This document shows positions 6,499 through 55,170 of a stretch of DNA of 64,000 bases, piece after piece. The notes beneath the pieces were generated by a model that worked only from the letters and a program-made list of their open reading frames with translations, searched no databases and was not told the DNA's origin. Both the position numbers and the translations under genes were made by a program. The stretch covers positions 496,001 to 560,000 of the forward strand of contig NZ_ATVQ01000001.1 of NCBI RefSeq assembly GCF_000420805.1, read 5' to 3'. How positions within the stretch are numbered: position 1 is the stretch's first letter; the number at the start of each line of letters is the position of its first letter. Origin of the DNA: Yaniella halotolerans DSM 15476. Lineage in GTDB: Bacteria; Actinomycetota; Actinomycetes; Actinomycetales; Micrococcaceae.

Positions 6499-6601
6499 AT
6501 GCCAACCTGAAACTAACTGTAACGCAGCCCACAATTCAAGATTGGTTCACACGAAACGCAACCTCTACGAGCACGCTCGTATAAAGGACTTGATACGCGT
6601 C

Positions 6602-35410: not shown

Positions 35411-36457
35411 ATGTTGAACTACTCAGTAACAGAAGCACGCGCATGGGCGCGTGAAGAATTTGTGGGGGCAGCTGCCGTCACCCATCCATCGTTTACTGCG
35501 GATTTCTCGCAACTGAACGAGGATGCAATCCAACACGATGTCGTACGCCTCAAAGAAATGGGATACACCGGCACCCTTCTGGTTGCCGAAGTAAATATCA
35601 CCCCTGAAGAAAACGCCCGTATGGCAGCGATCGCCCGCGAAGCCGCTGGCCCTGACTTCGGACTGTTTTTCCACGCTATTTACGGCACCCTGGAACAAAA
35701 CATCGAGGCAGCAAAATTAGCTACCAAATCCGGTGTGGATCGCGCCCTATTGGCGTATCCAGCCTCATTCTGGCCCACGTCATTGGACGAAGTATTTGAC
35801 TACACCAAACGCTTTACCGAAGAAACCCAACTGGCCACTATGCTGTTCCCACTCCCAGCTTGGGGGTTCGAACGCATCCACCCGGCAGGCATGCCCGTCG
35901 ATTTCGTGCGTCGCATTATCGATGAGTTACCAAACATCGTGGCGATCAAAGCAGAACAAGGTTACCCGGGGATTCCGGGGCTCATGGAGATGTATCACCA
36001 CTTCCGCGATGAGGTCGTGATTTCCTCCCCCATCGAAGCCAGCACCATTCCGTTGATGTCACAGCTGAAGCTTCAATACTCAGCGACCGCCAACACGAAC
36101 TGGATGGGCGACTACTACCCTCGGGTATTCGATATGGCACGTAAGGGCCAATGGGAAGAGGCTATGAAGCTCTACTGGCAGGTTACTCCGGCACGGGCCG
36201 CAAACGATGCAGTATCAGCAACATCCACTCCTGGAACGAACATGATCAGCCGTACCCAGTGGAAATACCAAGAGTGGCTATCTGGGTATAACGGCGGGGC
36301 ACTTCGTCCTCCAGCCACCAAACTTCCCGATCGCTTCATGAAGCAGCTTCGTGCAAGCCTGGAAGCTTCGGGACTCTATGTGACCGACTCTCCTGATGAG
36401 GAATTCATGCAGGGGCGCATTCCAGCTCGCGCACCTAGAGTGTCCGTCGGAGCCTAA
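35411..36457 (+). CDS. Dihydrodipicolinate synthase-family aldolase/hydratase
   Basis: 348 aa class I aldolase TIM barrel. Schiff-base lysine K180 in PNIVAIKAEQG; GVDRALLAYPASFWPTSLDEV and the N-terminal LKEMGYTGTLLVAEV are typical of the family and length matches hydratase-aldolases (about 330) better than DapA (about 290). At the place of the DapA YNxP tyrosine this protein reads FPLP, so the usual catalytic tyrosine looks like Phe146. Relatives include trans-o-hydroxybenzylidenepyruvate hydratase-aldolase, which releases an aromatic aldehyde and pyruvate; the divergent aldehyde dehydrogenase would fit such a product. Coupled to the OCD-family gene. AAGGAG before the start. Confidence 0.85.
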   Translation: MLNYSVTEARAWAREEFVGAAAVTHPSFTADFSQLNEDAIQHDVVRLKEMGYTGTLLVAEVNITPEENARMAAIAREAAGPDFGLFFHAIYGTLEQNIEAAKLATKSGVDRALLAYPASFWPTSLDEVFDYTKRFTEETQLATMLFPLPAWGFERIHPAGMPVDFVRRIIDELPNIVAIKAEQGYPGIPGLMEMYHHFRDEVVISSPIEASTIPLMSQLKLQYSATANTNWMGDYYPRVFDMARKGQWEEAMKLYWQVTPARAANDAVSATSTPGTNMISRTQWKYQEWLSGYNGGALRPPATKLPDRFMKQLRASLEASGLYVTDSPDEEFMQGRIPARAPRVSVGA

Positions 36458-36727: not shown

Positions 36728-37753
36728 TTAGAAGCGGTTGCGGACGTGCCTTTCGCGGCCATAAAGAAATGCTGCTGCAATGACGACGAAACCGTAAATG
36801 ATGCGACTTTCGGACTCGCTCATTCCGACACTCAACACAATCGTGGACAACAAAGTCAGGATCAGTGCACCTAACACTGTCCGGGTATAGCTGCCATGGA
36901 TCGAACCGAAAGTCGTACCGCCCAGCAGCACCGCGGCCAGACCAGTAAAGAAGTACGGTTCGCCGATATTGGCGGACCATCCGGCACTAAAGCTTGCAAT
37001 AAACATCCCTGCGATCCCTGCGGTTATCCCCGACGTGGCAAACGTCAAAGTCCAGACTTTGCCGGTGTGGACCCGCGTCAACTCGGCGGCTCGGGCATTC
37101 GTTCCGGTGGCATACAGGCGACGGCCACTGGCAGTCCGGGTCAAAAACAACCACACCAGCACGACCGCAGCGAGCACAATCAACAGGATCGGCGGGATGG
37201 GAAGCCCGAAGGTCGTCCCGTTAATGGCGGTCAGCGCTCGAAGAGCATCCGGCGGAGCGGATGTGAAATTCGCTTTAGCCACAAACAGGGTGCCGCCGAC
37301 CAGTGCGGCATTTATCCCCAGCGTCAGCACGAGGGGTTGAACATTGTATCGATGACTAACAAATCCAACGAAGGCGCCCACGAGACCACATATGACGACT
37401 GTCATCAGCAGCGCCAGAGGTATCGGCCATCCAGCTCCCCCTGCGAGATTCGAGGAGATAAAAGCACCCACGATAATATATCCGGGTATCGCTAGATCCA
37501 GACCCCCAATGAGGACCACGAAAGTTTGACCCAGTGCTGCAAGCGCGAGCAGCGCCGCAAGAATGAGCACAGATACGATAGACAGCCGATTAACGAATGC
37601 CGGAATGCTGATGACAAGCCACAGAATCAGCGCCAACAGAACCGACAACTGCAAAATCGGAAGTCTCAAGACGAAGAAGCGAAACTTTGTCCATCTGGAC
37701 GGAACTACGGGCGCATCAAGACGCGCGTTGACAACGGTACTGGTGGTGGTCAC
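36728..37753 (-). CDS. ABC transporter permease, CUT2 (RbsC-like)
   Basis: 341 aa, about nine TM helices. The RbsC family pattern is seen in FVVLIGGLDLAIPGYIIVGA and the conserved GINAALVGGTLFVAK and GLAAVLLGGTTFGSIHGS stretches. It forms the membrane channel with the second permease. Its start overlaps the upstream permease stop by four bases. Last gene of ATPase-permease-permease. Confidence 0.9.
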   Translation of the reverse strand: MTTTSTVVNARLDAPVVPSRWTKFRFFVLRLPILQLSVLLALILWLVISIPAFVNRLSIVSVLILAALLALAALGQTFVVLIGGLDLAIPGYIIVGAFISSNLAGGAGWPIPLALLMTVVICGLVGAFVGFVSHRYNVQPLVLTLGINAALVGGTLFVAKANFTSAPPDALRALTAINGTTFGLPIPPILLIVLAAVVLVWLFLTRTASGRRLYATGTNARAAELTRVHTGKVWTLTFATSGITAGIAGMFIASFSAGWSANIGEPYFFTGLAAVLLGGTTFGSIHGSYTRTVLGALILTLLSTIVLSVGMSESESRIIYGFVVIAAAFLYGRERHVRNRF

Positions 37754-38709
37754 TGGACTTTTCCTCTCTGCCGCGCTGACAACAGGGTCGCACTGACGAG
37801 TACGCCAACGACAAGAACGATGCCGTAAGCAAACTGGATAAGATTTGACTGCACGCCACCTGCAGTCAGCAGCTGCTGGATGAGATAGATGGCAAAGGCT
37901 CCAAAGAGGGTTCCTAACATACTCCCGCGGCCTCCAAGAAGACTGGTGCCACCCAGGACGACCGCTGCGAGGCCCAAGAGCGCGTAGGTGGTAGCCAACG
38001 CTGACTCTGAAGATTGCAGCAGCGCCGCCAGTGCGATGCCACCAATACCAGCAAAGAGTCCGCCGAGACCGTAGGCCAAAATCCGGACCGCCGTCACGTT
38101 GACGCCGGAGCCGAAAGCTGACTGATCGCTATCCCCTGTTGCCAACAGGTTACTGACAAATGCGGTGCGCCTAAGCAAAAACCAAATGAGCGCTGCAGCG
38201 CCAATGGTCAACAGTGCACCAGGAATGAAGCCAAGGGTTCGTGCCAATCCAGCACTCCACCGATCGGCAGCTTGAACCGGGTTTGGTGCGATGGTTTGTG
38301 ATAAACCAATAAGTATGAAGAGCATTCCTACTGTCGCAACGACCGGGTGCAATCTGACCACCGCAACAAGGATTCCGTTGATCATGCCGACAATTGTGGC
38401 CAGAATCAACAGAATCGGTACCGAAAAGTACCAAGAGCCAAGCCCCGCGGGCATCAGCACAGCGATGAAGATGACACTAATGAAGGTAGTCAGAGGTCCC
38501 ACTGAAATGTCCATCCCACCGGAGAGGACTGACGGTGTTGAGGCGAAGCCCACCAGCGCAAACGGTGCGAAGGTGCCCAAGATGGCCGGCCAACGAGTGG
38601 GATTCGCAAAGCTCGGCGAGACGATAATATTGAGAGCCAGCAACACGATGCATAACAGCAGTGCAAAGGCATAAGGACGTTGTTGGAGAAAAGCAAATAT
38701 CCTATTCAT
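37750..38709 (-). CDS. ABC transporter permease, CUT2 (RbsC-like)
   Basis: 319 aa from ATG 38709, which lies inside the ATPase 3' end with GGAAG upstream; a longer frame to 38733 lacks support. TM-rich; VLSGGMDISVGPLTTFISVIF, GMLFILIGLSQTIAP and LGLAAVVLGGTSLLGGRGS are RbsC-type signatures. Heteromeric partner of the other permease. Eight-base overlap with the ATPase gene. Confidence 0.9.
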   Translation of the reverse strand: MNRIFAFLQQRPYAFALLLCIVLLALNIIVSPSFANPTRWPAILGTFAPFALVGFASTPSVLSGGMDISVGPLTTFISVIFIAVLMPAGLGSWYFSVPILLILATIVGMINGILVAVVRLHPVVATVGMLFILIGLSQTIAPNPVQAADRWSAGLARTLGFIPGALLTIGAAALIWFLLRRTAFVSNLLATGDSDQSAFGSGVNVTAVRILAYGLGGLFAGIGGIALAALLQSSESALATTYALLGLAAVVLGGTSLLGGRGSMLGTLFGAFAIYLIQQLLTAGGVQSNLIQFAYGIVLVVGVLVSATLLSARQRGKVQ

Positions 38710-40228
38710 ACTGCACTTCCATTTCTTGGCCAAAGTATGCGGTCACAATAGACTGCTGGTGAAGATCCTTGCCGGCAAGCTCGGCAAAAACGGTCTTGTC
38801 CCGAAAGACCAGCGCTCTGTCCGTCAGTTGGACGATTTCGTCGACTTCGCTTGAAAGCACCACAATCGCAGTTCCTTGTAATGCAAGGTCCTGAAGCGTG
38901 CGGTATATCTCAAGCTTGGTTGAGATATCGACTCCACGAGTGGGATCATTGAGCAACAGAACCGAAGGTTCCGTCGCCAACCACCGTGCAAGCAGCACTT
39001 TTTGTTGGTTCCCGCCGGAGAGCGTGGTGATGGAATCGTCGGGACTCCCTAACTTGATACTGAGACTTTGGATATACTCTCGAAAGCGCGCAGCCATGCG
39101 TTTCCTGCTCAGGAATGGTCCAATCTTGTCTTGACGCATCGTCGGCAGCACAAAATTCTCCTGGATGGACATCTGTTCAAATAACGATTCACCGCGACGC
39201 TCTCTGGGCAGATAAGCAACCCCCAAACCTGCTGCATTGCGCCGTCCCACAGGAGTAGCTGAATTATTTTGCTCTACTTCGAGCCGCGATACACTGCCCG
39301 GTCCCCCTGCGAAACCGCTGAGGCGACGAATGAAGAGGTCCTGCCCATGTCCTTCGAGTCCGCAGAGTCCGATGATTTCACCGGCTCGAATGTCCACGTT
39401 GATTTTCGTAGCCTGTTCGGCCAATTGGATATCTCTAGCTTGCAGAACTACCTTGCCAGGTTCTCGAGGGGGCTTGAAACTCTCCTCTGGACTAACTTTT
39501 GAACCGGTCATATCTTGTATCAATCCGCTTATGGTCATTGTTTCCCTTGTAACCGTGGAGATAGTCTGCCCGGAGCGCAATACGGTAACTCGATCTGAGA
39601 TTTCGGCTACTTCGTCCATGCGGTGAGAGATAAATAGCACTGCCGAACCCTGCGCGGTTAGCCTACGGATCTCGTTAAAAAGCCGGTCTCTGGTTTGTAC
39701 ATCGAGTGCAGCGGTTGCTTCATCCAGAATCAGGACGCGAGGTCGACGAACTAACGAGCGAGCAATACTCACGGCCTGTCGTGCTGACAAAGAAAGCTCA
39801 GCTGCAGGGACATCCAATTGGGCGTCGCCCAGAAGCCGCTCCAATACTTCGGTTGCCTGCTGTCGTTGGGTCGCCGTCTTAAATCGTCTCCGAAATATCC
39901 CGTCTGAGCCGAGCCAGATATTCTGCAAGACGGATTGGTGGCTTGCAGTGAGTACTTCTTGGAAGACCGTCTCGATGCCATAGTGACTAGCTCCGCGGGG
40001 GCTACGCAGCGTTAGATCCGCACCGTCAAGAAGTATCTTGCCACTGTCTGGCTGGTGGACACCTCCAAGAATTTTTACTAGCGTGCTTTTTCCAGAGCCG
40101 TTCTCCCCCAGGAGTGTGTGAACGTCTCCGGGGAATAGTTCGATATTGGCTTCTACTAACGCCCTTGTGGCGCCAAAGTTTTTTTCAATCTTCGCCATCT
40201 GCAACAACGGCTGTCCTCGTTTTTCCAT
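38702..40228 (-). CDS. ABC transporter ATP-binding protein with two nucleotide-binding domains (RbsA/MglA type)
   Basis: 508 aa from ATG 40228 (GAGAGG upstream; the frame extends to 40348 without support). First domain: Walker A LLGENGSGKST, signature LSLSARQAVSIARSLV, Walker B VLILDEATAALD. Second domain has the degenerate Walker A of this subfamily (ICGLEGHGQDLFIR) but keeps LSGGNQQKVLLARWL and VLLLNDPTRGVD. It energises import by the two downstream permeases. Divergent from the binding protein gene, with operator site 6 between. Confidence 0.92.
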   Translation of the reverse strand: MEKRGQPLLQMAKIEKNFGATRALVEANIELFPGDVHTLLGENGSGKSTLVKILGGVHQPDSGKILLDGADLTLRSPRGASHYGIETVFQEVLTASHQSVLQNIWLGSDGIFRRRFKTATQRQQATEVLERLLGDAQLDVPAAELSLSARQAVSIARSLVRRPRVLILDEATAALDVQTRDRLFNEIRRLTAQGSAVLFISHRMDEVAEISDRVTVLRSGQTISTVTRETMTISGLIQDMTGSKVSPEESFKPPREPGKVVLQARDIQLAEQATKINVDIRAGEIIGLCGLEGHGQDLFIRRLSGFAGGPGSVSRLEVEQNNSATPVGRRNAAGLGVAYLPRERRGESLFEQMSIQENFVLPTMRQDKIGPFLSRKRMAARFREYIQSLSIKLGSPDDSITTLSGGNQQKVLLARWLATEPSVLLLNDPTRGVDISTKLEIYRTLQDLALQGTAIVVLSSEVDEIVQLTDRALVFRDKTVFAELAGKDLHQQSIVTAYFGQEMEVQYE

Positions 40229-40264
40229 GGAACCTCTCAGCGTGGTGTTGTGCTTTGCATCACA

Positions 40265-40287
40265 TGTATACCATACTGTACGTATCG
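40265..40287. promoter_or_regulatory. Island operator site 6 between ABC ATPase and binding-protein genes
   Basis: TGTATA (40265-40270) precedes CCATACT-GTA-CGTATCG (40271-40287); the right half is an exact half-site, the left half matches at five of seven positions. It sits between two divergent transporter genes and could control both. Confidence 0.55.
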
Positions 40288-40357
40288 AACCGCGTCGATT
40301 CTTTTCGCGCACACACCCTCGATGCAAAAAACACGTTCTGTACACCAAGGAGAAAAC

Positions 40358-41599
40358 GTGACTAAACGCAATTCATCACGCCCCCGATTACCTATTCTTT
40401 TAAGCGGCGTTGCTACGACCACCTTGCTGCTGAGCGGCTGCACTGGAAATGGCTCCGAAGAGAATGATGCAGCTGCCGTAGCAGACGACTCTGCTGTTCA
40501 GGCCGGCGCGTGCGGTTCAATCCCCGAGATGACGCCAAACGACCCCAGCGCCCTGCTCGGAGAAATGAGCGAAGAAGTTCAAGCCGCCTATCAGGGCTAC
40601 CCATATGAGGTCAAGAAATCGCAGTGGGAGGATTGGAAGCCAGACCATGACGGACCATATACGGCCGCTATGGTCACGGATCCCCCTACCAACCCATTTC
40701 AGGTGGCGCTCTATGAATCGATGCGGAACACCCTTGCAGAAAATGATGTCGAGCTGATCGCCGAGTACGCGCCAGCTTCGCATGCGGATGTACCACAGCA
40801 GTTGCAACAGTTTGAAGAGGCTATCTCCCAAGATCCAGATATCATTTTCTTCTTGCCCCTAGCGCCCGATTCCACTCTCGACGCTCTCGCCAGTGCGGCT
40901 GATGCAGGTATCCCCGTCGTCATTATTCAGGTCCCGGTAGATTCTGAACACGCTGTGAGTGTCTCGTTAAACCCTGTGCTTCAGGCGGCTGAAACTGGTG
41001 CATCGGTGTTTGAATCAATGGGTGGAGAAGGGTCCATCCTGCGGGTGCTAGGTGTTCCTGGGAACTCCACTGACACCTTTGCCACTATGGGCTATGACGC
41101 AGCACTGGAACAGTGCCCTGACATCACCGTCGCCGGTGAGGTCACTGGCACGTTCGAACCGGGAACAGCACAGGCCGAGACCTTGAACTTCCTATCTAGC
41201 AACCCGACGCCTGTCACCGGCGTGGTTCAATCTGGAACGATGGGCGTTGGGGTCCTGCAGGCCTTCTTAGACTCAGGACGTGACCCTGTCCCGATCGCTG
41301 ATATTGGTGCCACCCAGGGTTTCGTCAGCTGGGCAATCCAAAATCCTGAATATCCCTACACCGGTTCGGTAAGCCCTGCCAGCAGAATGGGCGATGTATA
41401 CGCAAATGTAGGCATCCGGATGCTCAATGGCGACGGCCCAAAGGTTAACCAGATGATCACTGCAGCTCAGATTCTCGACTCCGAGAATATCGTGGAACTT
41501 GGCGATGTTTCTTGGGAGATTACTGACCAAAGCCTCTTTGACGGTGAACCGGAAGCATTCTTCCCGGAAGAACACCTCGATGAGTTATTCACCAACTAA
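40358..41599 (+). CDS. ABC transporter substrate-binding lipoprotein (periplasmic-binding 4/RbsB-like)
   Basis: 413 aa from GTG 40358, chosen because AAGGAG stands just before it and the lipoprotein signal begins there (KRNSSRPRLPILLSG, lipobox LLSGC). The body resembles type 1 periplasmic binding proteins: TAAMVTDPPTNPFQVALYESM, DPDIIFFLPLAPDSTLDALASAADAGIPVVII and GGEGSILRVLGVPGNSTDTF. It delivers the ligand to the divergently encoded CUT2 transporter. CUT2 systems usually carry sugars; its place in the island suggests a glycoside, polyol or other pathway substrate, which is inference. Confidence 0.9.
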   Translation: MTKRNSSRPRLPILLSGVATTTLLLSGCTGNGSEENDAAAVADDSAVQAGACGSIPEMTPNDPSALLGEMSEEVQAAYQGYPYEVKKSQWEDWKPDHDGPYTAAMVTDPPTNPFQVALYESMRNTLAENDVELIAEYAPASHADVPQQLQQFEEAISQDPDIIFFLPLAPDSTLDALASAADAGIPVVIIQVPVDSEHAVSVSLNPVLQAAETGASVFESMGGEGSILRVLGVPGNSTDTFATMGYDAALEQCPDITVAGEVTGTFEPGTAQAETLNFLSSNPTPVTGVVQSGTMGVGVLQAFLDSGRDPVPIADIGATQGFVSWAIQNPEYPYTGSVSPASRMGDVYANVGIRMLNGDGPKVNQMITAAQILDSENIVELGDVSWEITDQSLFDGEPEAFFPEEHLDELFTN

Positions 41600-42950: not shown

Positions 42951-44456
42951 TCAAACGCTCTGCTGTGCCTGAACTGATATTCCAGGCAGAAGCTGCACCA
43001 GACGTTCAAGATCAATTACAGAATCCCCCACACCGAGTATGTAACGATCCGGACGGACGATGATCGCCGAAGAACCACTAAATTCCAGAAGCTGATTGGT
43101 TTTCTCTGGTTCATTCATGACGACGATGTGGTCGCTGGATTCAATCTGCTGGCGCACGTCCGAACCCAGTTGGTAGTACAGCTCTGCATTCGCGGCGATC
43201 AAAAACCGCATTCCCACCAGGTCGTCCAGGCGCGTACCGTCCGCCAGCATGGGCTGCATGCTCAAGTAGCCTGAAATGTCACCTTCGGTTGAGTCATGTA
43301 ATCCTGGGCCAATGGGCGGAGAGACAGGAGCTGCATCCATTGGATTGGCCCACAGATATTCGTCTCGCTTACGTGCCGCTTCTGCGTCCGTTGTCTGAAG
43401 AAACATCGCGGCGTTGGTCGCTTGCTCCACCCAGAACTGGGCATGCGGTTTGCGTTCTGCCTCATAGGTATCCAGAAGGCTTTCATCCGCGACCCCTCGT
43501 TTGATGAGTGCTAACTTCCATGTTAGGTTCGCAACATCTCTGATCCCTGCACAAAGCCCTTGCCCAAAACACGGAGGGGCTTGATGAGCGGAGTCTCCGG
43601 CGAGGAATACTCTGCCTTCTCTCCATCGTTGAGAAATTCGTCCTCTAAATGTATAGACTGCCTGACGGTCTGGATGGAATTGCGCCGCTGGAAGTATTCC
43701 TCGACTGATGCGTTCAATTGCCGCCGGGGTGACAATCTCGTCGAGATCGTCTCCTTCCATAACCATGAATTCCATCCGAACACGAGTCCCTGGTAAGCGG
43801 ATCCATAAGGCTGGTCGAGTGTGGTGACAAAGGAAAACCATGTCGTCTTCATAGCCGGGGCTGTCGACTAAATGGCCGTCTACGACGACCCATTCGGCAT
43901 CCTCGCCGAATTTTTCACTTTCAATTTCCAAAGCTCGGCGTATCGGCGAGCGCGCACCGTCAGCCGCAATGAGCCATTTTGCACGAAGTACTGCTTCTTG
44001 GCCGTTGGAGTCGACAATATTGACTTCGACCCCTCCCGAGATATTTCTGACTTCACCTGCAGTCACACCCCGGCGCAGTTCAATGTTGGGCAGTTCAGAG
44101 ATCCGCTGTCGTATTAGACGTTCGACTTCGGGCTGGTGGAAGGTGATGTTATTGGGCCATGCTTGCGGACCGAATTCTCCGGTGGGCACCGAAATTAAAA
44201 CCTGCCCAGTTTCATTTTGAAAATGAGTTGAGGACATTGGCAGGGTAGCTGCAGCGAGCTCTTCTGTTACGCCCAAGGTTTGTAGTACCCGAAAAATCTC
44301 CCCGTCGAAATGTACAGCACGCGCGGTGGGCCACGCTTCAGGGTCTTTCTCAATGCCAATAGCAGTCAGGCCGAGTTGACCCAACATCGCTAGCGCAGTT
44401 ACTCCGACCGGGCCTCCACCGACCACGATGACATCTGCGTCATGAACCTCAACCAT
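42951..44456 (-). CDS. FAD-dependent aromatic hydroxylase (MhpA/PheA-like), copy 2
   Basis: 501 aa from ATG 44456 (GGGAG upstream; a TTG at 44492 would begin inside the operator). Same motif set as copy 1: VIVVGGGPVGVTALAMLG, WLIAADGARSPIRRALEI, VFLAGDSAHQAPPCFGQGLCAG, and the shared VRMEFMVM and PPIGPGLHD stretches. Clear paralogue of the 31.3-32.8 kb gene along its full length. Expected to hydroxylate a phenolic substrate. It has its own promoter-operator; FAH copy 2 lies just upstream on the same strand. Confidence 0.88.
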   Translation of the reverse strand: MVEVHDADVIVVGGGPVGVTALAMLGQLGLTAIGIEKDPEAWPTARAVHFDGEIFRVLQTLGVTEELAAATLPMSSTHFQNETGQVLISVPTGEFGPQAWPNNITFHQPEVERLIRQRISELPNIELRRGVTAGEVRNISGGVEVNIVDSNGQEAVLRAKWLIAADGARSPIRRALEIESEKFGEDAEWVVVDGHLVDSPGYEDDMVFLCHHTRPALWIRLPGTRVRMEFMVMEGDDLDEIVTPAAIERISRGILPAAQFHPDRQAVYTFRGRISQRWREGRVFLAGDSAHQAPPCFGQGLCAGIRDVANLTWKLALIKRGVADESLLDTYEAERKPHAQFWVEQATNAAMFLQTTDAEAARKRDEYLWANPMDAAPVSPPIGPGLHDSTEGDISGYLSMQPMLADGTRLDDLVGMRFLIAANAELYYQLGSDVRQQIESSDHIVVMNEPEKTNQLLEFSGSSAIIVRPDRYILGVGDSVIDLERLVQLLPGISVQAQQSV

Positions 44457-44473
44457 TTCAACTCCCTTAAGTT

Positions 44474-44519
44474 CGAACCGTTTCGTATTCAATGTAATTC
44501 ATGTCACACTTTAATGCAA
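44474..44519 (-). promoter_or_regulatory. Promoter and island operator site 7 for hydroxylase 2
   Basis: On the minus strand: TTGCAT (44519-44514), 17-bp spacer, TACATT (44496-44491), then directly GAATACG-AAA-CGGTTCG (44490-44474). The layout and even the spacer (ending GACATGAAT versus GATATGAAT) match the hydroxylase 1 promoter. Confidence 0.72.
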
Positions 44520-44550: not shown

Positions 44551-45534
44551 CTACGCCCTGTTACCTGCGGATGGGTCGCGAACGAGATTGCGCTGCGTTC
44601 CTAGGCCAGTGATATTGCCTTCAATGACGTCACCAGCTTGAAGGAACCTCCCCCAGTGCGAACCGTTACCTTGTGGCGATCCAGTGATCACCATGTCACC
44701 GGGATGCAATGACATAAACGACGATATATACGAGATCAGTTTCGGAATATTAAAAACCATGTCACTGGTGTTCCCCTGCTGCATTGGAGTTCCGTTCAGT
44801 GACAAACGGATCTCGAGGTCGTGAGGATCTTCGACGAATGCGGCTGGCACAATATATGGGCCCGTGGGGAAGAATGTCGGATGGTTCTTCGAGCGCATCC
44901 AATCGGTTCCCATCATTGGAATATCTTTTCGAGGCACAAGGCTGCGAGTGGTGATATCGTTGCAAATCGTGTACCCGGCCACATAATCCATGGCGTCTTG
45001 TTCAGAAACGCGGTAAGCGTCCCGCCCAATGACTACTCCGAGTTCGAGCTCCCAGTCATGATCGTTACCGACCTCCGGAAGGAGCACGTCGTCATATGCG
45101 CCAGACATTCCCGAAGCAGATCCGATCCACACATAAGGTTCTCCATTTTGTGCTCGCTCGTCTACTTCCTGTGCTGCTTGCTCACGCAGAGCTTCGGCAG
45201 AAGCGTCAGGGTCACCCAGCTGATGCGCTACCGTTATTTCGATGACATGTTGGCGATAGTTAGCTCCAGCAGCTATCAGCTGACCTGTTGGAGTCACCGG
45301 CGGCAAGGTCTGAAGATCTACGACCGGAGTGGAGTCGAAAGCTGCGCGCTTTTGCTCATCTTGAGCAAACTCATTCAAGCGCTCGAAGTTACTTTTCCAG
45401 TCAGAAAGCAGAACTGTTGTACTGGTGACCTCAGGGATCACGCTAGAAATACTGTATACCCGGTCTGCGATCACCATGCCCGGGAAATATTTCCCCCCTG
45501 CACTAAATGTGCCTATTGAAAACTGAACTCCCAT
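44551..45534 (-). CDS. Fumarylacetoacetate hydrolase family protein, copy 2
   Basis: 327 aa. Metal ligands in DWELELGVVIGRDAYRV and GYTICNDITTRSLV; C-terminal GDMVITGSPQGNGSHWGRFLQAGDVIEGNI. Typical FAH-domain C-C hydrolase/decarboxylase. Ninety-four bases upstream of hydroxylase 2 and downstream of the NMT1-fold gene. With the extradiol dioxygenase in the same cluster, cleavage of a meta-cleavage product is plausible. Confidence 0.87.
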   Translation of the reverse strand: MGVQFSIGTFSAGGKYFPGMVIADRVYSISSVIPEVTSTTVLLSDWKSNFERLNEFAQDEQKRAAFDSTPVVDLQTLPPVTPTGQLIAAGANYRQHVIEITVAHQLGDPDASAEALREQAAQEVDERAQNGEPYVWIGSASGMSGAYDDVLLPEVGNDHDWELELGVVIGRDAYRVSEQDAMDYVAGYTICNDITTRSLVPRKDIPMMGTDWMRSKNHPTFFPTGPYIVPAAFVEDPHDLEIRLSLNGTPMQQGNTSDMVFNIPKLISYISSFMSLHPGDMVITGSPQGNGSHWGRFLQAGDVIEGNITGLGTQRNLVRDPSAGNRA

Positions 45535-45691: not shown

Positions 45692-46558
45692 TTACGAACT
45701 CCCCAAGGCTGCCTCAAGTACGTCAGACCTCCACAGTGAATGAATATCTTGAAATGCGGACGGCAGCATACCCAGCTCATCACGCATATGGACAAGCAAT
45801 TCAAGGCCAGCAGCCGAAGGGACAAGGGTAGCCGGCCTGGCATCCCATCCCGATTCTCGAGCCCGTGGACCGAAACCTGCTTGTGCCAGCAACTCGAGAC
45901 CTTCTTGCCGGCGTACGCTAGCGGTCCAAGTAACTGCTTCATGTAGTAGTTTCAAATACAAGTGCAATCGCGGCTGAATCTCGTCGAGTCGAGACTCGCA
46001 TACCACGATGCCCTGGCCGGGATAGTCTCTAGCCAAATCATTGACCGTTGCCAACTGAGTAAGACCTTCTTGCTCGGCCATTTCATCAAAAGGTGGACCA
46101 AGCAACGTTGCGTCCACCCGCTCTTCTAAAAGTGCAGTCAAACGTTGGCTCACACCGCCGATTTCGACGAATTCGACATCTGAGATTTTTCCTACAGTAA
46201 GTAAGTATTTCGCGACGATAGCGAACCCATTGGAGGCTGCATCAACTGCGAAACGGAGTCCGGAAAGATCTGAGAAATCAGATAAGCCCGGTCGTGCATA
46301 AAGGCCAAGAGGAGTCGTGCGCTCAATTTGTCCTACCAACCGAAAATCATCAACGTGCTGATTCCACACCAGCATGTTGTCGATGGCAGTTATGGCAACA
46401 TCGCACTCTCCGTTGAGGAGATCGTCCCGCTGCTCATTGCTAGATCGAGTGACCTTTGAGTCCACATTGAGCCCGATTTTCTCGAAAACATCAAGATGCT
46501 TCGCTACAACCACCGGAACTGGGGGCACGAAATATGTTTGCCTAAGCGTCTCAGCCAT
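45692..46558 (-). CDS. NMT1/THI5-like substrate-binding-fold protein without signal peptide
   Basis: 288 aa. The sequence has the type 2 periplasmic binding fold of the NMT1/SsuA/TauA group: PVVVAKHLDVFEKIGLNVD at the start, NGECDVAITAIDNMLVW, the hinge-region LSGLRFAVDAASNGFAIVAKYLL and VDATLLGPPFDEMA. Unlike transport proteins it begins directly at the first beta strand with no signal peptide or lipobox, and there are no permease or ATPase genes beside it, so it should stay in the cytoplasm. Cytosolic members of this superfamily include enzymes (THI5; 4,5-dihydroxyphthalate decarboxylase-type proteins). A catalytic or sensing role in ring catabolism is possible; function not assigned. Confidence 0.75.
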   Translation of the reverse strand: MAETLRQTYFVPPVPVVVAKHLDVFEKIGLNVDSKVTRSSNEQRDDLLNGECDVAITAIDNMLVWNQHVDDFRLVGQIERTTPLGLYARPGLSDFSDLSGLRFAVDAASNGFAIVAKYLLTVGKISDVEFVEIGGVSQRLTALLEERVDATLLGPPFDEMAEQEGLTQLATVNDLARDYPGQGIVVCESRLDEIQPRLHLYLKLLHEAVTWTASVRRQEGLELLAQAGFGPRARESGWDARPATLVPSAAGLELLVHMRDELGMLPSAFQDIHSLWRSDVLEAALGSS

Positions 46559-46750: not shown

Positions 46751-47773
46751 TTACTGGTTAGGTCGGTGTGTAGCGCCCATGCGTATCAGTTCGTCCTCAG
46801 TGCCCGGCACGAGACCTTCTTCGGTCGCAGTCGGTTGCGGGGCTGGCGGAAACGCCTCGAGCATCGACTGCGGTAGTTCCTGATTGCGGTAGTAGTCGTT
46901 TGGCCCGTCCTCAGGCAGAAAGTACGGGGGTTCCCAATCGGGAACATAGTTGCGATAGCCACCTGTATTCACTTCCGTGCGAAGACCGCTTGGATCCCGG
47001 AAGTACAGGAAGTCTTGCTCACCCATGCCATGCATTCCAGGACCAAACTCGACGCCTGTGCCGTTCTCCATCAACAGATCTGCGGCGCGTCGCAACTCGT
47101 CGGGAGTATCAAGCCAATACGCATAATGATGGATGCGGCCGGGAACGTCGGAAGCGTCCAGTATGATTCCCAGGTCGTGGGACTTCTCGTTCGTGGTGAT
47201 TTGACACATGAAGGTAACGTTGCCGTCATCAATGCCGACCATAGCCATAATGCGGAAGCCGAGATGATCACGGTACCACTCACCTAGCTCCCGCGGATCG
47301 CGCGATGCGATGGTGATGTGGTCGAGCTGGCGCGGAGCAAGGCCATGGAAAGTGCGGCGTTGTGGCCGTTCGATCGAATTAGACTTGAACTCTCCGTCGG
47401 CTTTGTAGCGCTCGACTTCCCAGAAGAGGCGCATGACATGCCCATGCGGTCCGGTGAAGATGTAAGAGCGACCGATCCCGGCCTCTGGCTCGTGCCATTC
47501 ACCCTTATATTCGGTCGCGTCGATTCGCCGAGCAGCTTCCTCAAGTGCCTCCTGGGAACTTGTTCTCCACGCCATGAAGGACATTCCAGGCTGTTCCCCT
47601 GGTTTGAGGATGACGCTGAACTCGTAGTAGTCGCTCCAGCAGCGCAGGTAAACTCTGTCGTTCTCACGACGAGTGACGCGCAGGCCTACCTCTTCCTCAT
47701 AGTATTTGACCGATTCATCCATATCGGTTGCGTAGATTTCAATGTGCGCAACGTGCGCGAGTAGCTTGCTCAT
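46751..47773 (-). CDS. Extradiol ring-cleavage dioxygenase (catechol 2,3-dioxygenase type, VOC fold)
   Basis: 340 aa, two-domain type I extradiol enzyme. Fe(II) ligands are visible as His152 (QLDHITIASRD), His215 or 216 (GRIHHYAYWLD) and Glu267 (GLRTEVNTGGY). The N-terminal domain starts HVAHIEIYATDMDESVKYY. It opens a catechol ring next to the diol (meta cleavage). AAGGACAC lies before the start. Farthest-right gene of the island and first of its unit, under operator site 8. It supplies the ring-cleavage step that the two FAD hydroxylases would feed. Confidence 0.9.
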   Translation of the reverse strand: MSKLLAHVAHIEIYATDMDESVKYYEEEVGLRVTRRENDRVYLRCWSDYYEFSVILKPGEQPGMSFMAWRTSSQEALEEAARRIDATEYKGEWHEPEAGIGRSYIFTGPHGHVMRLFWEVERYKADGEFKSNSIERPQRRTFHGLAPRQLDHITIASRDPRELGEWYRDHLGFRIMAMVGIDDGNVTFMCQITTNEKSHDLGIILDASDVPGRIHHYAYWLDTPDELRRAADLLMENGTGVEFGPGMHGMGEQDFLYFRDPSGLRTEVNTGGYRNYVPDWEPPYFLPEDGPNDYYRNQELPQSMLEAFPPAPQPTATEEGLVPGTEDELIRMGATHRPNQ

Positions 47774-48924: not shown

Positions 48925-49986
48925 CTACTTTTGACTGAAGAAATCGTCGTTGCGTTCCTTATCCTCTGATGAATGCGTATTGAATCCACTCCACCCAAGG
49001 ATGACCCCGCCCATGAAACCGACTATGGGGAAGTCTTCGAGGTGATCAATGCTCGAATGGACAGCAAGAGCCGTCCAGGCCGTTATTGCAATCAGAGCTA
49101 CCGTTCGACTCCCCCGAGCCGCGAACAAGAGACCGCCAAGGAACAAGGTCGCCAGCAGCACAACTCCCAGGGCTCCCAGCTCGGCACCTACTTGGAGTAT
49201 CAATGAATGAACTGCAACAAGGCTTGGCGTACCCGAAGCAAGCTCGGATGAGGGCGTAAATGATCCAGGTCCAGACCCGAACAACGGTTCTGTCGCCCAC
49301 AGACGGAGAGCGTCAGACCACAATGTATGTCGAGCACTGCTCAAACTCTCGCCCGCAGACAACCAGGATGGCCACGTATCACGGCTCCCCAAAAGAATAA
49401 CTGCGAACCCTGCCATCGCAGCTACGCAGAAGCCGAGAACAACTGATACCCACTGAGGCGGGCCATGTCGTTTCCAAATAGTCAACACAATGATTACTGC
49501 CACCGGAAGAGTCAGGGCGATTGCAGCCTGAGAGCCGATCACCAGATAAATCCCCGCTAGAACTGTTAACGCTAGAACCATAGCGGGCGGTAAGACACTG
49601 TATGGATCGGCTGAATCTTGATTGTGTTCCCCCAAGCGTTGCCTGGCTTTCATCGCATCTTGAAGGTCCAGCATGGCAAGCCCAGCTAGCGCAACGAAGA
49701 GTCCGCCAACTGCCGCGCTTGCGTTAGCGTAAATCGGTATGGATATTGCGGTCACAACGGATACGACGACAAGGGGCAGAAGGAGTCCGCCGCGCCGCCA
49801 AGATCGTCGTAGATACGCCCCGCAAAGGGCGCCCAAAACCAGTACGACCGGTGTGACGATGTACGGGGAGCTAAATCCTAGAGGAAACTGTGAGGTAGAG
49901 CTTGTGATAAGCACCCACACCATCCAGGCTACAAAACCGGTGATGCAGAAAATACCCGATCTCCCAATGTGGTGGCGCACTGTCAT
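48925..49986 (-). CDS. O-antigen ligase-like polytopic membrane protein, copy A
   Basis: 353 aa from ATG 49986 (GGAGGAA seven bases upstream). About ten TM helices with the long periplasmic loop of Wzy/WaaL-type proteins: SAGESLSSARHTLWSDALRLWATEPLFGSGPGSF, then HSLILQVGAELGALGVVL, where the conserved histidine and arginine of the family lie. Expected to polymerise or ligate a surface glycan. Close paralogue of copy B at 51.6-52.7 kb; a broken nucleotide-sugar dehydrogenase separates them. Confidence 0.78.
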   Translation of the reverse strand: MTVRHHIGRSGIFCITGFVAWMVWVLITSSTSQFPLGFSSPYIVTPVVLVLGALCGAYLRRSWRRGGLLLPLVVVSVVTAISIPIYANASAAVGGLFVALAGLAMLDLQDAMKARQRLGEHNQDSADPYSVLPPAMVLALTVLAGIYLVIGSQAAIALTLPVAVIIVLTIWKRHGPPQWVSVVLGFCVAAMAGFAVILLGSRDTWPSWLSAGESLSSARHTLWSDALRLWATEPLFGSGPGSFTPSSELASGTPSLVAVHSLILQVGAELGALGVVLLATLFLGGLLFAARGSRTVALIAITAWTALAVHSSIDHLEDFPIVGFMGGVILGWSGFNTHSSEDKERNDDFFSQK

Positions 49987-50226
49987 CACAGATTCCTCCA
50001 CATCCCGCTGCCCGTACCCCGCAAGATCAACTATAGCTTCTGGCCTAACAACCAGGTTCTTCTGGAAAACGGAAATATCGTAATCGCCTAGCTGCCCGAG
50101 CTATCGATGATCTGAGGATACAGCCAAGACCATCCGAGGCCGTGCTGGAAAGTCAGCCCACGGAGTCATACGGCCTCACACCAGTGTCGATAGGTCATAA
50201 CCGTTGCGCTCAAGGAAGCGAACTTA

Positions 50227-51569: not shown

Positions 51570-52682
51570 TTACCCTTGGCCAACGAAATCCGCATTGCGT
51601 CTGTAACCCTCTGATGAGTGCGCACCGAGCCCACTCCACCCAAGAATTACCCCACCCATGAAGCCGACTATAGGGAAGTCTTCTAGATGGTCCATGCTCG
51701 AATGCACAGCGAGAGCCGTCCAGGCTGCCATTGCAATGAGAGCTACCGGCCGGCTCCCCCGAGCCACGAATAAGAGACCACCAACAAATAGGAGCGCCAG
51801 CAGGACGACGCCTACTGCTCCCAGCTCGGCGCCTACTTGCAATGGCAGAGAGTGCACCGCGGCAAGGCTTGGCGTATTCGAGGCAAGCTCGGAGGACGGA
51901 GTGAATGATCCAGGCCCAGAACCGAGGATAGGTGCCGACGCCCAAAGACTCAGGGCATCAGACCACGGGGTATGCCGAGCACTACTCAAGCTCTCGCTTG
52001 CTGACAACCAAGCTGGCCAAGACTCTCGACTTCCGAGCAAAATAACCGCAATTCCTGCCCCGGCAGCCACCAGGCACCCAAGCAGCACTGCTATCCACTG
52101 CGGTGAGCCACTTTGTCTCCACACCGTCAACGCAATGACGAGCGCAATAGGAAGGGTCAGAGCAATGGCTGCTTGAGAGTCGAGGACCAGCAGCACACCC
52201 GCACAGAGCATGAGTGCGAGAACAAGCGCTTGGCGCAACGCGCGGTCTTCAGCTGCGGGAGCCCAGCGAGATCCCGCCAACGACTGATTGGGTTGCATCG
52301 CTTCTCGGAGATCAAACATCCCCAGCCCAATTAGCGCAATAAAAAGGCCTCCTACTGCTGCACTCGCATTGGCGCACAGGGGCAGAGAAATAGCGGTTAC
52401 GACCAACCCCACAATGGCAAAGTACCTGGCTTTTCCGCGACGCCACTGTCGACGGAGCAAGCCGCCCGCCACGATACCCAGGACAAGCACAGCAGGTGCT
52501 ACCAGGTAGGGAGAAGTCAGGTCGAGAACGTACTTCGAGGTGACGCCAGAAACGACCGCCCACAGGCACCAACGTATAAGTCCAACTTCCGTGGGCAGTT
52601 CAATGCATCGACGGGGTCTTCTCGCTGTGGCTATACTGAGCCTGTACGCAACCTGGGTAACATCTGAGTGATTGGCACGCAT
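51570..52682 (-). CDS. O-antigen ligase-like polytopic membrane protein, copy B
   Basis: About 370 aa. Full-length similarity to copy A: SLPLCANASAAVGGLFIAL, SQAAIALTLPIALVIALTV, SASESLSSARHTPWSDAL, GSGPGSFTPSSELAS and DHLEDFPIVGFMGGVILGW are all shared. The start is uncertain: ATG 52682 has no ribosome site and lies back to back with the EcsC-like start; no better start is seen, and the open frame beyond it only runs antisense to the neighbour. Tandem duplication with copy A, with the damaged dehydrogenase between. Confidence 0.75.
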   Translation of the reverse strand: MRANHSDVTQVAYRLSIATARRPRRCIELPTEVGLIRWCLWAVVSGVTSKYVLDLTSPYLVAPAVLVLGIVAGGLLRRQWRRGKARYFAIVGLVVTAISLPLCANASAAVGGLFIALIGLGMFDLREAMQPNQSLAGSRWAPAAEDRALRQALVLALMLCAGVLLVLDSQAAIALTLPIALVIALTVWRQSGSPQWIAVLLGCLVAAGAGIAVILLGSRESWPAWLSASESLSSARHTPWSDALSLWASAPILGSGPGSFTPSSELASNTPSLAAVHSLPLQVGAELGAVGVVLLALLFVGGLLFVARGSRPVALIAMAAWTALAVHSSMDHLEDFPIVGFMGGVILGWSGLGAHSSEGYRRNADFVGQG

Positions 52683-52683
52683 A

Positions 52684-53787
52684 GTGAGTGACGAGTACGA
52701 CGAATCTACGGCTGGGGACCTTGTGAGCTCTGAACTTATTGAGCCCTTGGCCCCGGATGAACACGTACCTTCGGTCGAGTCCGACGCTTCGAATAGTATC
52801 CAGGATATGTTGGACGAACAAGACAAAGAGGCTGAGGACTTTGCCAAGAAGTTCATCACAGCCACTTTGCGACTCCGCGGCGTGCGGATAGAACGCGAAC
52901 ATTTCCTCAAGTCCGAGCTGCACAAGCGCGGGGTCGGACAAGACGAAATCGCTAGAGCGATCGAAGACTCCCCCGCTTTCGTTGGTATCTATCCAGCCTT
53001 ACTAGATGAGATCGCTCAAGCCTCGATTGACTTCGAAAGAAATAAAACTTCCGGCATTTCTTTCGCTGCCGGTGTTCCCGGTGGACTGGCTATGTTCGCA
53101 ACAGTGCCGGGAGATGTTACGCAGTTTTATGTTCATGTTTTCCGGATCATGCAAAAACTCGCTTATGTCTACGGTTGGCAATCATTTCTCGATGACGCGG
53201 AAAAGATCGATGACGAAACGCTGGGAATGCTCAGCGGGTTCCTCGGAACCATGATGGGTGTCGCTGGGGCTGCCAGTTCCCTCCGGCATTTCGCGCACAA
53301 ATTCGCACGCCCCGCTCTTGAAAAGAACATTGCGAAAGTCGCGCTGAGTAAAACGGTTTGGTACGGACCCATGAAACAGACGCTGCGAGTAATCGGCGTG
53401 CACGTCACGAAACAGAGCTTTGCCCGAACGGTCACCAAAGTCGTTCCCATAGTTGGAGGCGCGGTATCAGGAGGCTTCACGTATGTCACGTTCAATGCCC
53501 AATCGAAACGTCTCATGCAACACCTCCGCGAGCTCCCACCGCCAAACGTTGATGCCGCTGAATACCTTGCGGCTGTTCGAGGTTCCGAGAACGCTTCTGC
53601 GTCAAAGCAGGAGCAATCTGACACTGTCGATGACATCCGGCCTCGTACTCGTTTCTCGGCGAAGCGACTTACCCAAGCAGTGGCACCCACTCTCAAAAAC
53701 GCACGCTCGACAGTGGCTAACAAAATAGATACCTGGCGGCGCCCGAAACACGACGATCAGACGGATACCGAGGATGACGAAAACTGA
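52684..53787 (+). CDS. EcsC-family-like protein
   Basis: About 367 aa from GTG 52684 (a TTG at 52672 would overlap the divergent gene; neither has a clear ribosome site). An acidic N-terminus of about 50 residues is followed by a helical domain with FAAGVPGGLAMFATVPGDVTQFYVHVFRI and, later, VVPIVGGAVSGGFTYVTFN, amphipathic glycine-rich stretches typical of the EcsC family, which is loosely membrane-associated. The basic/acidic C-terminal tail is low complexity. Function unknown; divergent from O-antigen-ligase copy B and convergent with mcrC. Confidence 0.68.
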   Translation: MSDEYDESTAGDLVSSELIEPLAPDEHVPSVESDASNSIQDMLDEQDKEAEDFAKKFITATLRLRGVRIEREHFLKSELHKRGVGQDEIARAIEDSPAFVGIYPALLDEIAQASIDFERNKTSGISFAAGVPGGLAMFATVPGDVTQFYVHVFRIMQKLAYVYGWQSFLDDAEKIDDETLGMLSGFLGTMMGVAGAASSLRHFAHKFARPALEKNIAKVALSKTVWYGPMKQTLRVIGVHVTKQSFARTVTKVVPIVGGAVSGGFTYVTFNAQSKRLMQHLRELPPPNVDAAEYLAAVRGSENASASKQEQSDTVDDIRPRTRFSAKRLTQAVAPTLKNARSTVANKIDTWRRPKHDDQTDTEDDEN

Positions 53788-53859: not shown

Positions 53860-55170
53860 CTAGTCTTCGTCGCTTCTAAACCAGCTTCGCAAGAATGTTA
53901 TGCACTCTTCTCTTCTGATTGGAAGGCGCAAAAATTCCAGTTGTGCCCCGCCAGGAGAGCTCCATGGCCCGTTGAGCTCTGGTGAGGACGGTGATGCCTC
54001 AATCATCGGGTATGCAAGAAGCGCTTTGGTGGACCTGAAACTTTGGCTATATGCGTGGAGCTGGTAGAGATCTTCACGGTCTACTCCCCTTGGGTCAACC
54101 AGGGGCTTATATTTAGCGTCAATAACAGCACGAGCTGACGCATGGTCCGGGGACGGTCCGATAAGGACGTCAGGATAGAGTCGCCCCATCCCCTTGACGG
54201 GTACGACCTCGGAATGGAGTAAGTGCTGGCGGAGGCTGTCAGCAGTCCCGTGCACCACGTTTTCGGCAGTTGCTTCGGCAGCGCAGTGCAGCACGAACCG
54301 TTCCCATAGCTCGGCCACATCAATCAACAGGCCGTAGGTCGCTGAACTTTTCGCAGTGTGTTTCAGCAGCCGATTCGACGCAATACGATGAGATAGTTCA
54401 GCAGCTTCGCGCCATTTCATGGTGATAGGCGTATACCGTACCCGACTGAGTCGGGCTCGAGATGGAAGCTTGGGATTTGCACCCACTGCCTTGCGTAGGT
54501 GGCCGAGTTGGTCGCTGATGCGCTGGCCACGCCACATTGGATTTCCCATTTTGCTGTTAAGTACTCGGTCGGCAGCGACGATAGCAGCATTTGTTGGGGA
54601 GACCAGCGTGTTTTGTTTCATCGTCGAAACGACCCCTGGGTACCCGGTAGCGCGGAGTCGGCTAGTGGCAGCGCCGTCGAGGTTACCTTTGATTTGCAGT
54701 CCGGTTGTGCTACGCCTGATCTTTTGTTTGGCGAGGCTATGACTGCCGGCTTGTGCGATGACGGCGCGCCACAGAGCTGCCGCAAGTTGGATGATCAAGG
54801 ATTGATTACCGTGGGAGCGATCGGCAGCTTCTGGGACGATCTGTACGTTATGAATGGCACTCAACCAGTCAGCGATGGTGTCAATTTCCAATCGTGGCTT
54901 GATGTGAAGCGTTCGCCCCTGATGATGGATCTCGCCAATATAGCGACCAGTCCGCCAACCGTGCAGGTCTCGATCCAAAATCGGCTCGAACATGGGCTTG
55001 TTCTTGGACTGTCGGTGCGGAGGTTGGTCAGTGAGCAAGAATTGTTCCGGCTCGAGACGTGCAATGGATTCCAGCCATGCATGATCCTCTCCGCTCAGCT
55101 CTACTTCCCACTCGGACTGGGGCGTGAGATCTTTGATGGTCATGCACGCGTTTTTGGAACGTTTACGCAT
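53860..55170 (-). CDS. mcrC: McrC-type nuclease subunit of a McrBC restriction system
   Basis: 436 aa. C-terminal PD-(D/E)xK nuclease: aspartate in GRLYPDVLIGPSP (about 335) and VIDAKYKPL (about 350). The N-terminal part (GEIHHQGRTLHIKPRLEID, TNAAIVAADRVLNSKMG) is the McrC DUF that contacts McrB. McrC cleaves methylated DNA when driven by McrB GTP hydrolysis. Its start overlaps the mcrB stop by eight bases. Assignment is strong. Confidence 0.92.
   Translation of the reverse strand: MRKRSKNACMTIKDLTPQSEWEVELSGEDHAWLESIARLEPEQFLLTDQPPHRQSKNKPMFEPILDRDLHGWRTGRYIGEIHHQGRTLHIKPRLEIDTIADWLSAIHNVQIVPEAADRSHGNQSLIIQLAAALWRAVIAQAGSHSLAKQKIRRSTTGLQIKGNLDGAATSRLRATGYPGVVSTMKQNTLVSPTNAAIVAADRVLNSKMGNPMWRGQRISDQLGHLRKAVGANPKLPSRARLSRVRYTPITMKWREAAELSHRIASNRLLKHTAKSSATYGLLIDVAELWERFVLHCAAEATAENVVHGTADSLRQHLLHSEVVPVKGMGRLYPDVLIGPSPDHASARAVIDAKYKPLVDPRGVDREDLYQLHAYSQSFRSTKALLAYPMIEASPSSPELNGPWSSPGGAQLEFLRLPIRREECITFLRSWFRSDED

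Follow-up and report, generated by a model that had tools for sequence, protein, structure and literature searches.

The product of the open reading frame at 45692-46558 is very probably a cytosolic protein dedicated to one catabolic pathway, and it is probably an enzyme rather than a binding protein. We propose that it is a cytosolic enzyme derived from a receptor fold, most likely the hydroxypyranone-carboxylate decarboxylase of a single ring-cleavage pathway, and we put the probability of this reading at roughly 0.38. The cytosolic, pathway-dedicated role is favored because its relatives share the absence of an export signal, the same gene set recurs around them, a gene of the FAH family lies close by, and the protein co-occurs with a cupin. 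The preliminary description had suggested either a catalytic step or an intermediate-binding protein; the pathway-dedicated cytosolic role common to both is well supported, whereas the fold leaves the choice between enzyme and binder undecided.

A fuller version of this proposal is offered tentatively, and with more doubt than confidence: the signal-less protein would supply the decarboxylation part of the unassigned X2-to-X3 step in the breakdown of the flavonoid A ring, at the point where the 5-hydroxy and 5-deoxy routes meet, and would be the founding member of a receptor-fold family of hydroxypyranone-carboxylate decarboxylases, distributed over actinobacteria and proteobacteria.

The gene and its surroundings

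The gene is found on the minus strand of the window (the whole 64-kb stretch of DNA analyzed) and begins with ATG, as had been described; the preliminary placement between an extradiol dioxygenase and an FAH hydrolase is likewise correct, and all three genes are on one strand (Table 1). Upstream of it lies the catechol-2,3-dioxygenase-type gene, and downstream are the FAH hydrolase and an FAD hydroxylase of the MhpA type. The protein scores above the curated cut-offs of both PF13379 (NMT1_2, E 1.3e-11) and PF09084 (NMT1, E 2.8e-10); a distant HemC match in the profile search (E 0.0015) is taken as shared fold and nothing more. Its closest named relatives come from a Micrococcaceae genome (91%) and a Candidatus Yaniella genome (89%), which points to a Yaniella-like actinobacterium as the probable source. 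Among solved structures, the neighboring hydrolase FAH-a matches L-2,4-diketo-3-deoxyrhamnonate hydrolase (171.6 bits) and, almost tied, an HpaG-type isomerase/decarboxylase (170.7 bits).

Table 1. Features of the window around the signal-less protein, in window coordinates
Feature	Position	Strand	Remark
Acetyl-CoA acyltransferase (thiolase)	24826-26037	-	Above TIGR01930 cut-off
Acetoacetate-CoA ligase	27493-29481	-	Above cut-off
Cupin (cluster c5)	29478-30083	-	Co-occurs with signal-less protein; putative IfcD counterpart by cluster content only
Second FAH-family hydrolase, FAH-b	30086-31102	-	Separate clade; nearest solved relative HpaG-type isomerase/decarboxylase
Second FAD hydroxylase	31278-32792	-	Same cluster (c7) as 42951-44492
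Aldehyde dehydrogenase, succinate-semialdehyde type (c3)	32888-34264	-	
Ornithine cyclodeaminase-family protein (c6)	34385-35398	+	
DHDPS-family protein (c4)	35411-36457	+	Possible pyruvate-type aldolase; 61% identity to best proteobacterial counterpart
Sugar-type ABC transporter with own lipoprotein receptor	36728-41599	.	Permeases and receptor lipobox named by eye
ABC transporter permeases	36728-37753 and 37750-38733		By eye
ABC transporter ATPase	38702-40348		
ABC transporter lipoprotein receptor	40250-41599		Lipobox by eye
FAD aromatic hydroxylase, MhpA type	42951-44492	-	Above NF004829 cut-off
FAH-family hydrolase, FAH-a	44551-45534	-	
Signal-less NMT1/THI5-fold protein	45692-46558	-	288 aa; proposed decarboxylase
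Extradiol dioxygenase, catechol 2,3-dioxygenase type	46751-47773	-	340 aa

Absence of an export signal

From the ATG, the frame remains open on the 5' side for 20 residues to the nearest stop (TAQAFTAGSTGQQIGIGIGI), and these 20 residues hold no signal sequence; the upstream in-frame signal that the preliminary description allowed might have been missed is therefore not there. Its claim that the protein has neither signal peptide nor lipobox was borne out by this upstream stretch, by the relatives, and by controls from the same genome (2.78 Mb in six contigs), in which the other six of the seven PF09084 matches all carry an N-terminal lipobox, as judged by eye, and the 45692-46558 protein does not. 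Residues 1 to 3 of the AlphaFold2 model align with residues 23 to 29 of SsuA, TauA, and ThiY, so that the protein would start about where the mature forms of these receptors begin, i.e., at the end of their signal peptides. Plain N-terminal hydrophobicity does not decide the question of export: the 12-residue run of highest hydrophobicity within the first 45 positions averages 1.57 in the window protein (residues 8-19), 2.52 in the signal-less protein of one relative (locus L054), and 2.13 to 2.62 in exported proteins. This measure fails to separate the groups because the domain itself starts with a strand and a helix that are hydrophobic.

No signal was seen in the relatives at any of 34 named loci (0/34) in Actinobacteria and Proteobacteria. 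For these proteins we took the 15-residue stretch with the highest mean Kyte-Doolittle value on the N-terminal side of the aligned part, a measure that applies where at least 15 residues are open and thus leaves out 11 of the 34 loci; the signal-less relatives reach at most 1.15, as against 1.95 and 2.27 for the signal-bearing relatives at L027 and L026, respectively.

The preliminary description had also stated that permease and ATPase are missing. None seems to belong to this protein, and no PF00528 permease occurs in the window at E<=0.001, the nearest being about 126 kb away; a sugar-type ABC transporter does, however, lie 4-9 kb from the gene, and is a candidate uptake system. At two other loci, L015 and L031, the signal-less protein is accompanied by an NMT1-family lipoprotein receptor followed by two permeases and an ATPase (cluster c37). 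As this receptor is separate, the signal-less protein is not the receptor of that transporter. At L030, an NMT1-family receptor and one permease are found at the edge of the stretch and were not counted as a full transporter. The NMT1-family receptors found with transporter genes at L015 and L031 (and, at the edge, L030) offer a natural contrast to the signal-less protein.

A conserved signal-less group

Within the family (395 Micrococcaceae genomes), a search recovered the protein in 11 (E<=1e-15), and a scan of the genome collection yielded the 34 named loci. Their actinobacterial genera include Arthrobacter, Glutamicibacter, Microbacterium, Georgenia, Salinibacterium, Streptomyces, Micromonospora, and Rhodococcoides; the proteobacterial genera are Pseudomonas, Variovorax, Paraburkholderia, and Pseudomaricurvus. 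We aligned 34 members, i.e., the proteins of 33 of the 34 loci (L037 was excluded) together with the window protein. Thirty-one columns are invariant, among them S40, Q43, T57, D60, W65, E79, T81, T82, D106, N110, G111, F112, R139, P155, P156, P180, G181, G183, and R259. No His, Cys, or Lys is invariant in this alignment, and no Cys occurs even among the nearly invariant columns. Read against the DSSP line of the model, about 21 of the 31 invariant columns fall at strand-end or helix-start positions, which are the usual site of the ligand cleft in this fold; the conserved columns are thus predicted to lie mostly at the cleft. Any assignment of a catalytic residue in the 45692-46558 protein would be a guess.

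In a protein tree, 24 signal-less cluster proteins form one group (support 93/91, not starred), apart both from their signal-bearing relatives and from the NMT1-family receptors of three of these loci; this tree held the 24 members and 10 others, drew a long-branch warning, and includes an outgroup row (L030) with a misplaced start. The signal-bearing relatives (L026, 8872-9873; L027, 8881-9870; L070, about 5900-6900) occur near VOC, FAH, and YciI genes in Rhizobium AB2/73 and on plasmid pA81. They share the core residues S40, Q43, T57, D60, N61, D106, R139, and R259 with the signal-less group, and have replacements at W65, E79, T81, T82, P155, P180, and G183. Because so many core residues are held in common, the exported version may have similar compounds as its substrates or ligands.

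Two irregular copies were also seen: that of Bradyrhizobium sp. 2S1 (L076, 7983-8683) is annotated as two overlapping CDS, and that of Paraburkholderia sprentiae (L075, 5902-6405) is short and apparently truncated.

Predicted fold and its known enzymes

An AlphaFold2 model built from the 34 aligned members (mean pLDDT 93.7, pTM 0.90; strand 1 at residues 3-9) was compared with solved structures using Foldseek and VIA-align 2. We are confident that the predicted structure is a type-II periplasmic-binding-protein fold over nearly the full length. Three receptors, ThiY (Z 26.2, rmsd 3.1, 274 residues aligned), SsuA (Z 25.3, rmsd 3.5, 272 aligned), and TauA (Z 24.9, rmsd 2.9, 276 aligned), are among the matches, as are the enzymes THI5 (PDB 4esx, 4h67; Z 25.1, rmsd 3.8, 278 aligned, 13% identity), MqnD (Z 20.8, rmsd 3.5, 249 aligned), DszB (PDB 2de2, 2de3; Z 19.6, rmsd 3.5, 277 aligned), 4,5-dihydroxyphthalate decarboxylase (9jp7_B; Z 17.9, rmsd 3.6, 261 aligned, 13% identity), and MqnA (6o9a; Z 17.0). 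The top score in this comparison of a model belongs to a receptor, and enzyme and receptor cannot be told apart from the fold alone. The structure prediction and comparison with decarboxylases that the preliminary description proposed gave matches to 9jp7, DszB, and MqnD; the kinship that it drew to THI5 and the dihydroxyphthalate decarboxylase holds at the level of the fold only, given 13% identity in each case.

The protein shares its fold, near full length, with the NMT1/SsuA/TauA/ThiY receptors (PF09084, PF13379), and scores above the Pfam cut-offs. Unlike these receptors, it has no signal or lipobox, lacks a neighboring permease or ATPase of the matching kind, and sits amid ring-cleavage genes. 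The 4,5-dihydroxyphthalate decarboxylase of Comamonas testosteroni has in common with it the fold, a place in aromatic catabolism, and the type of reaction proposed here; it belongs to a different pathway, and the likeness is known from the fold only. A link in sequence was not found: the decarboxylase is unlisted in searches of PDB sequences by phmmer (E up to 1) and by profile (E up to 0.1), which distant kin could escape. We found no usable literature on its active site, the accessible part of one review (PMC13040137) giving pathway text and references.

THI5, the HMP-pyrimidine synthase, likewise lacks a signal. The motif of THI5 is CCCFC. A THI5-like synthase was rejected as a candidate: the fold matches, but the protein has no such motif (its two Cys are at positions 52 and 187, and CC occurs nowhere) and its group has no invariant His. 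The desulfinase DszB, which acts on 2'-hydroxybiphenyl-2-sulfinate and so takes an acidic group off a ring, depends on a Cys (the solved mutant is C27S), whereas the signal-less group has no invariant or nearly invariant Cys. With these proteins in mind, the 45692-46558 protein is best seen as a variant within the known set of receptor-fold enzymes.

A gene set that recurs in two phyla

We compared 41 regions (21 actinobacterial and 20 proteobacterial), consisting of the 34 loci, L015, L023 to L027, and positions 22001-54000 of the window. They were picked for holding the signal-less protein (39) or a signal-bearing relative (2, L026 and L027), and L036 and L037, which have identical FAH rows and are apparently one region, are counted twice. 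Genes inside each stretch were called by our own ORF calling and grouped by single linkage, so that high-GC shadow ORFs may remain, and the c2 group unites proteins of only about 31% identity across the phyla; cluster functions were read from representatives. FAH-family genes are present in 40 of the 41 regions, followed by a glyoxalase-type dioxygenase (c2; 32), aldehyde dehydrogenase (25), a DHDPS-family gene (24), the cupin (23), an ornithine-cyclodeaminase-family gene, often adjoining the DHDPS-family gene (20), an MhpA-type hydroxylase (19), beta-keto acid cleavage enzyme (15), acetoacetate-CoA ligase (12), and an LysR-type cluster, c12, named from annotation (12). One beta-keto acid cleavage enzyme scores above the cut-off of NF053538 (3,5-dioxohexanoate:acetyl-CoA acetone transferase), and a second one tested falls below it. 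In 32 of 41 regions, an FAH gene lies within 400 bases of the signal-less or signal-bearing gene and shares its strand. In a quick tree of 67 FAH rows (length filter, 220-420 residues), two clades each span both phyla: FAH-a, with 37 rows, 31 of them beside the signal-less protein, and FAH-b, with 21 rows, six of them beside it.

Median best identities between the phyla are as follows: DHDPS-family gene, 64%; FAH, 48%; cupin, 47%; ornithine cyclodeaminase family, 42%; signal-less protein, 40.5%; aldehyde dehydrogenase, 37%; and c2 dioxygenase, 31%. Each of the two hydroxylase clusters, c7 and c17, occurs in a single phylum. By these figures, the downstream genes are common to both phyla, and the entry step (hydroxylase and dioxygenase) differs; the signal-less protein therefore goes with the downstream part and not with the entry step. 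Between the window's own cupin and its closest proteobacterial counterpart, identity is 46%. Of the genes shared between the phyla, the DHDPS-family gene is the best conserved, and at 64% median identity its product probably catalyzes one and the same reaction in the two phyla.

The cupin, searched for independently in the 395 Micrococcaceae genomes (E<=1e-30), was found in the same 11 as the signal-less protein, even though the two genes are about 16 kb apart in the window. In the genus to which Variovorax sp. OV700 belongs (101 genomes), the protein (E<1e-100) and the cupin (E<1e-90) again occur in the same seven, and the Variovorax c2 dioxygenase (E<=1e-60) is found in those seven and in three more. 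At E<=1e-20 the protein search matched 14 genomes of that genus; seven weaker matches (best E about 1e-37 to 1e-42) and one weaker cupin match (G461) were set aside as other families, and with them included the two sets differ. These counts, which come from clustered genes and related genomes and are not independent trials, show that the signal-less protein and the cupin are kept or lost together.

A proposed place in flavonoid breakdown

In Variovorax V35, according to the 2024 study (PMC11069340), daidzein is hydroxylated at C8 by IfcA, and the dioxygenase IfcB yields a peak that matches X2 in mass (m/z 301.035); the compound identified after it is X3, 2-hydroxy-5-(4-hydroxyphenyl)-4H-pyran-4-one (m/z 203.035), on which the cupins IfcD1/D2 act; by its authors' account, the gene for the conversion of X2 to X3 remained to be identified. 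We infer that X2 is the C8/C8a cleavage product, with a 2-oxobut-3-enoate side chain. The atom balance then closes exactly: X2 plus water minus pyruvate gives an aldehyde, C12H8O5; addition of oxygen gives C12H8O6; and loss of CO2 gives X3. On the 8-hydroxygenistein route, hydrolysis of an assumed acylpyruvate side chain gives pyruvate and the same C12H8O6 acid. This chemistry would account for the presence of DHDPS-family and aldehyde dehydrogenase genes in about 60% of the regions, for FAH-a, whose top solved relative splits a 2,4-diketo acid, and, as both routes reach C12H8O6, for a shared decarboxylation. The pathway assignment is an argument from chemistry and gene content rather than a demonstration.

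In the scheme that we propose, an FAD hydroxylase would generate a catechol (step 1) and the extradiol dioxygenase would open its ring (step 2). Loss of pyruvate from the side chain would fall to FAH-a in the case of an acylpyruvate, and to the DHDPS-family aldolase together with aldehyde dehydrogenase in the case of a 2-oxo-3-enoate (step 3). Both routes would lead to the same acid of the beta-keto (hydroxypyranone) type, which the signal-less protein would decarboxylate by protonation of the carboxylate-bearing carbon and release of CO2 (step 4). The cupin would then open the hydroxypyranone (step 5), and FAH-b, or in many proteobacteria a beta-keto acid cleavage enzyme, would free acetoacetate (step 6), to be taken up by acetoacetate-CoA ligase and thiolase, two enzymes that fit such a late release. 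The predicted fold, the missing signal, the recurring gene set, the co-occurrence, and the conserved residues were obtained here; that this protein performs step 4 we infer.

The proteobacterial loci match the fde cluster of Herbaspirillum seropedicae and the ifc cluster of Variovorax, as described in the accessible parts of the publications (PMC8552027, PMC11069340), in the glyoxalase-type dioxygenase, Rieske ferredoxin, FAD hydroxylase, cupin, and phenol-MetA-type protein, and the genera overlap; the likeness rests on these published descriptions, and c5 is a putative IfcD by cluster content. No fde terms were found in PMC4440368. Unlike these sets, the actinobacterial loci have an MhpA-type hydroxylase and a c2 dioxygenase only 31% identical, with the downstream genes in common, and the fde/ifc-like cupin is present in the window cluster as well. 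The window cluster has MhpA-type hydroxylases and, in place of the dioxygenase type at most other loci, a C23O-type enzyme: with a Microbacterium c2 query (E<=1e-10), no c2 dioxygenase was found in the source genome, the sole match being its own C23O-type protein (23%), and its close relatives L028 and L029 gave no good c2 match. One genome (G085, which holds L015) carries both a C23O-type gene and, elsewhere on the contig, a c2 gene. Because no c2 was found with this query and the hydroxylases are of MhpA type, the organism may use a flavonoid, a chromone, or some other ring leading to the same kind of acid; that its substrate is flavonoid-like at all is a proposal, and we trust the substrate less than the type of role. 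As described in the available part of PMC7356986, the 4-hydroxypyridine cluster of Arthrobacter IN13, considered as a parallel and then dropped, has no protein of this family and a dioxygenase of another type.

Alternative explanations

The fold, which includes known cytosolic lyases, one of them a decarboxylase, allows the activity proposed, by analogy. Several observations count against it. The best matches of the model are the transport receptors ThiY, SsuA, and TauA; the window dioxygenase is of another type than that in most of these loci; within the stretch, 13 of the 41 regions have neither aldehyde dehydrogenase nor a DHDPS-family gene, and 18 of 41 have no cupin; and the signal-bearing relatives share many core residues, those at L026 and L027 also being found with VOC and FAH genes. 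An FAH enzyme could itself perform step 4, because an HpaG-type isomerase/decarboxylase is the best match of FAH-b and the nearly tied second match of FAH-a. X2 could also be converted to X3 by an aldolase and loss of formate, with no decarboxylase, and acids of this kind may lose CO2 unaided. Genes of the ifc cluster were disrupted in the Variovorax study, as the accessible part of PMC11069340 reports, and this gene may be among the disruptions that had no effect. It is possible, at well short of even odds, that the protein is instead another cytosolic enzyme of the same pathway, i.e., a lyase, tautomerase, or hydratase acting on the ring-cleavage product, or a helper in pyranone opening. The context and co-occurrence suit such an enzyme as they do a decarboxylase, MqnD and MqnA share the fold and act in menaquinone synthesis, and the passage from X2 to X3 takes several chemical events, for which FAH-family genes could supply the decarboxylation; however, hydrolysis, retro-aldol cleavage, and oxidation are already within reach of FAH, aldolase, and aldehyde dehydrogenase, which would leave less for a further enzyme to do.

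That the protein is a noncatalytic cytosolic binder, which sequesters an intermediate that is reactive or dissolves poorly, or serves as its regulatory sensor, we consider unlikely. It would agree with the receptor fold and with conserved columns that the model places mostly at the cleft, and such a domain is regulatory inside the cell in CmpC and NrtC, both of which appear in the fold list; yet no regulator is fused or constantly linked to the signal-less protein, the LysR-type cluster being found in 12 of 41 regions, and the pairing with FAH-a and co-occurrence with the cupin suit a metabolic step better. We give very little credence to an orphan transport receptor that is exported by a nonclassical route or has just lost its signal, and that serves an ABC importer such as the one at 36728-41599. 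The top fold matches, the proximity of this transporter, and the existence of signal-bearing relatives would speak for such a receptor, but a signal is missing at all 34 named loci in two phyla, the transporter close by comes with a receptor from another family, the window holds no PF00528 permease, and the transporters at L015 and L031 have a separate lipoprotein receptor.

Annotation and significance

We found no published signal-less NMT1 protein in a catabolic cluster, in a search made mostly without subscription papers. In annotated plasmid records, members of the group carry the name "hypothetical protein", and looser relatives are labeled "ABC transporter substrate-binding protein"; should the group be enzymatic, a catabolic step lies hidden behind these names. 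The group provides one testable candidate for the step left without a gene in the 2024 paper, and the results suggest that in actinobacteria a different entry leads into a shared downstream part of that pathway. If enzymatic, the group would also be one more of the few examples of a transport-receptor fold turned enzyme. Three looser signal-less NMT1 proteins annotated as transporter receptors (L071, 5989-6924; L072, 5947-6870; L074, 5956-6861) lie in operons that contain either UbiD and xanthine-dehydrogenase genes or P450 and amidohydrolase genes, and no annotated permease adjoins them in the stretch shown.

Elsewhere in the window, two similar O-antigen-ligase-like membrane proteins (48925-50001 and 51570-52925) flank a UDP-sugar-dehydrogenase-like gene in what looks, by eye, like a duplication, and the gene pair at 53860-56977 resembles, also by eye, what we take to be a McrBC-type restriction system.
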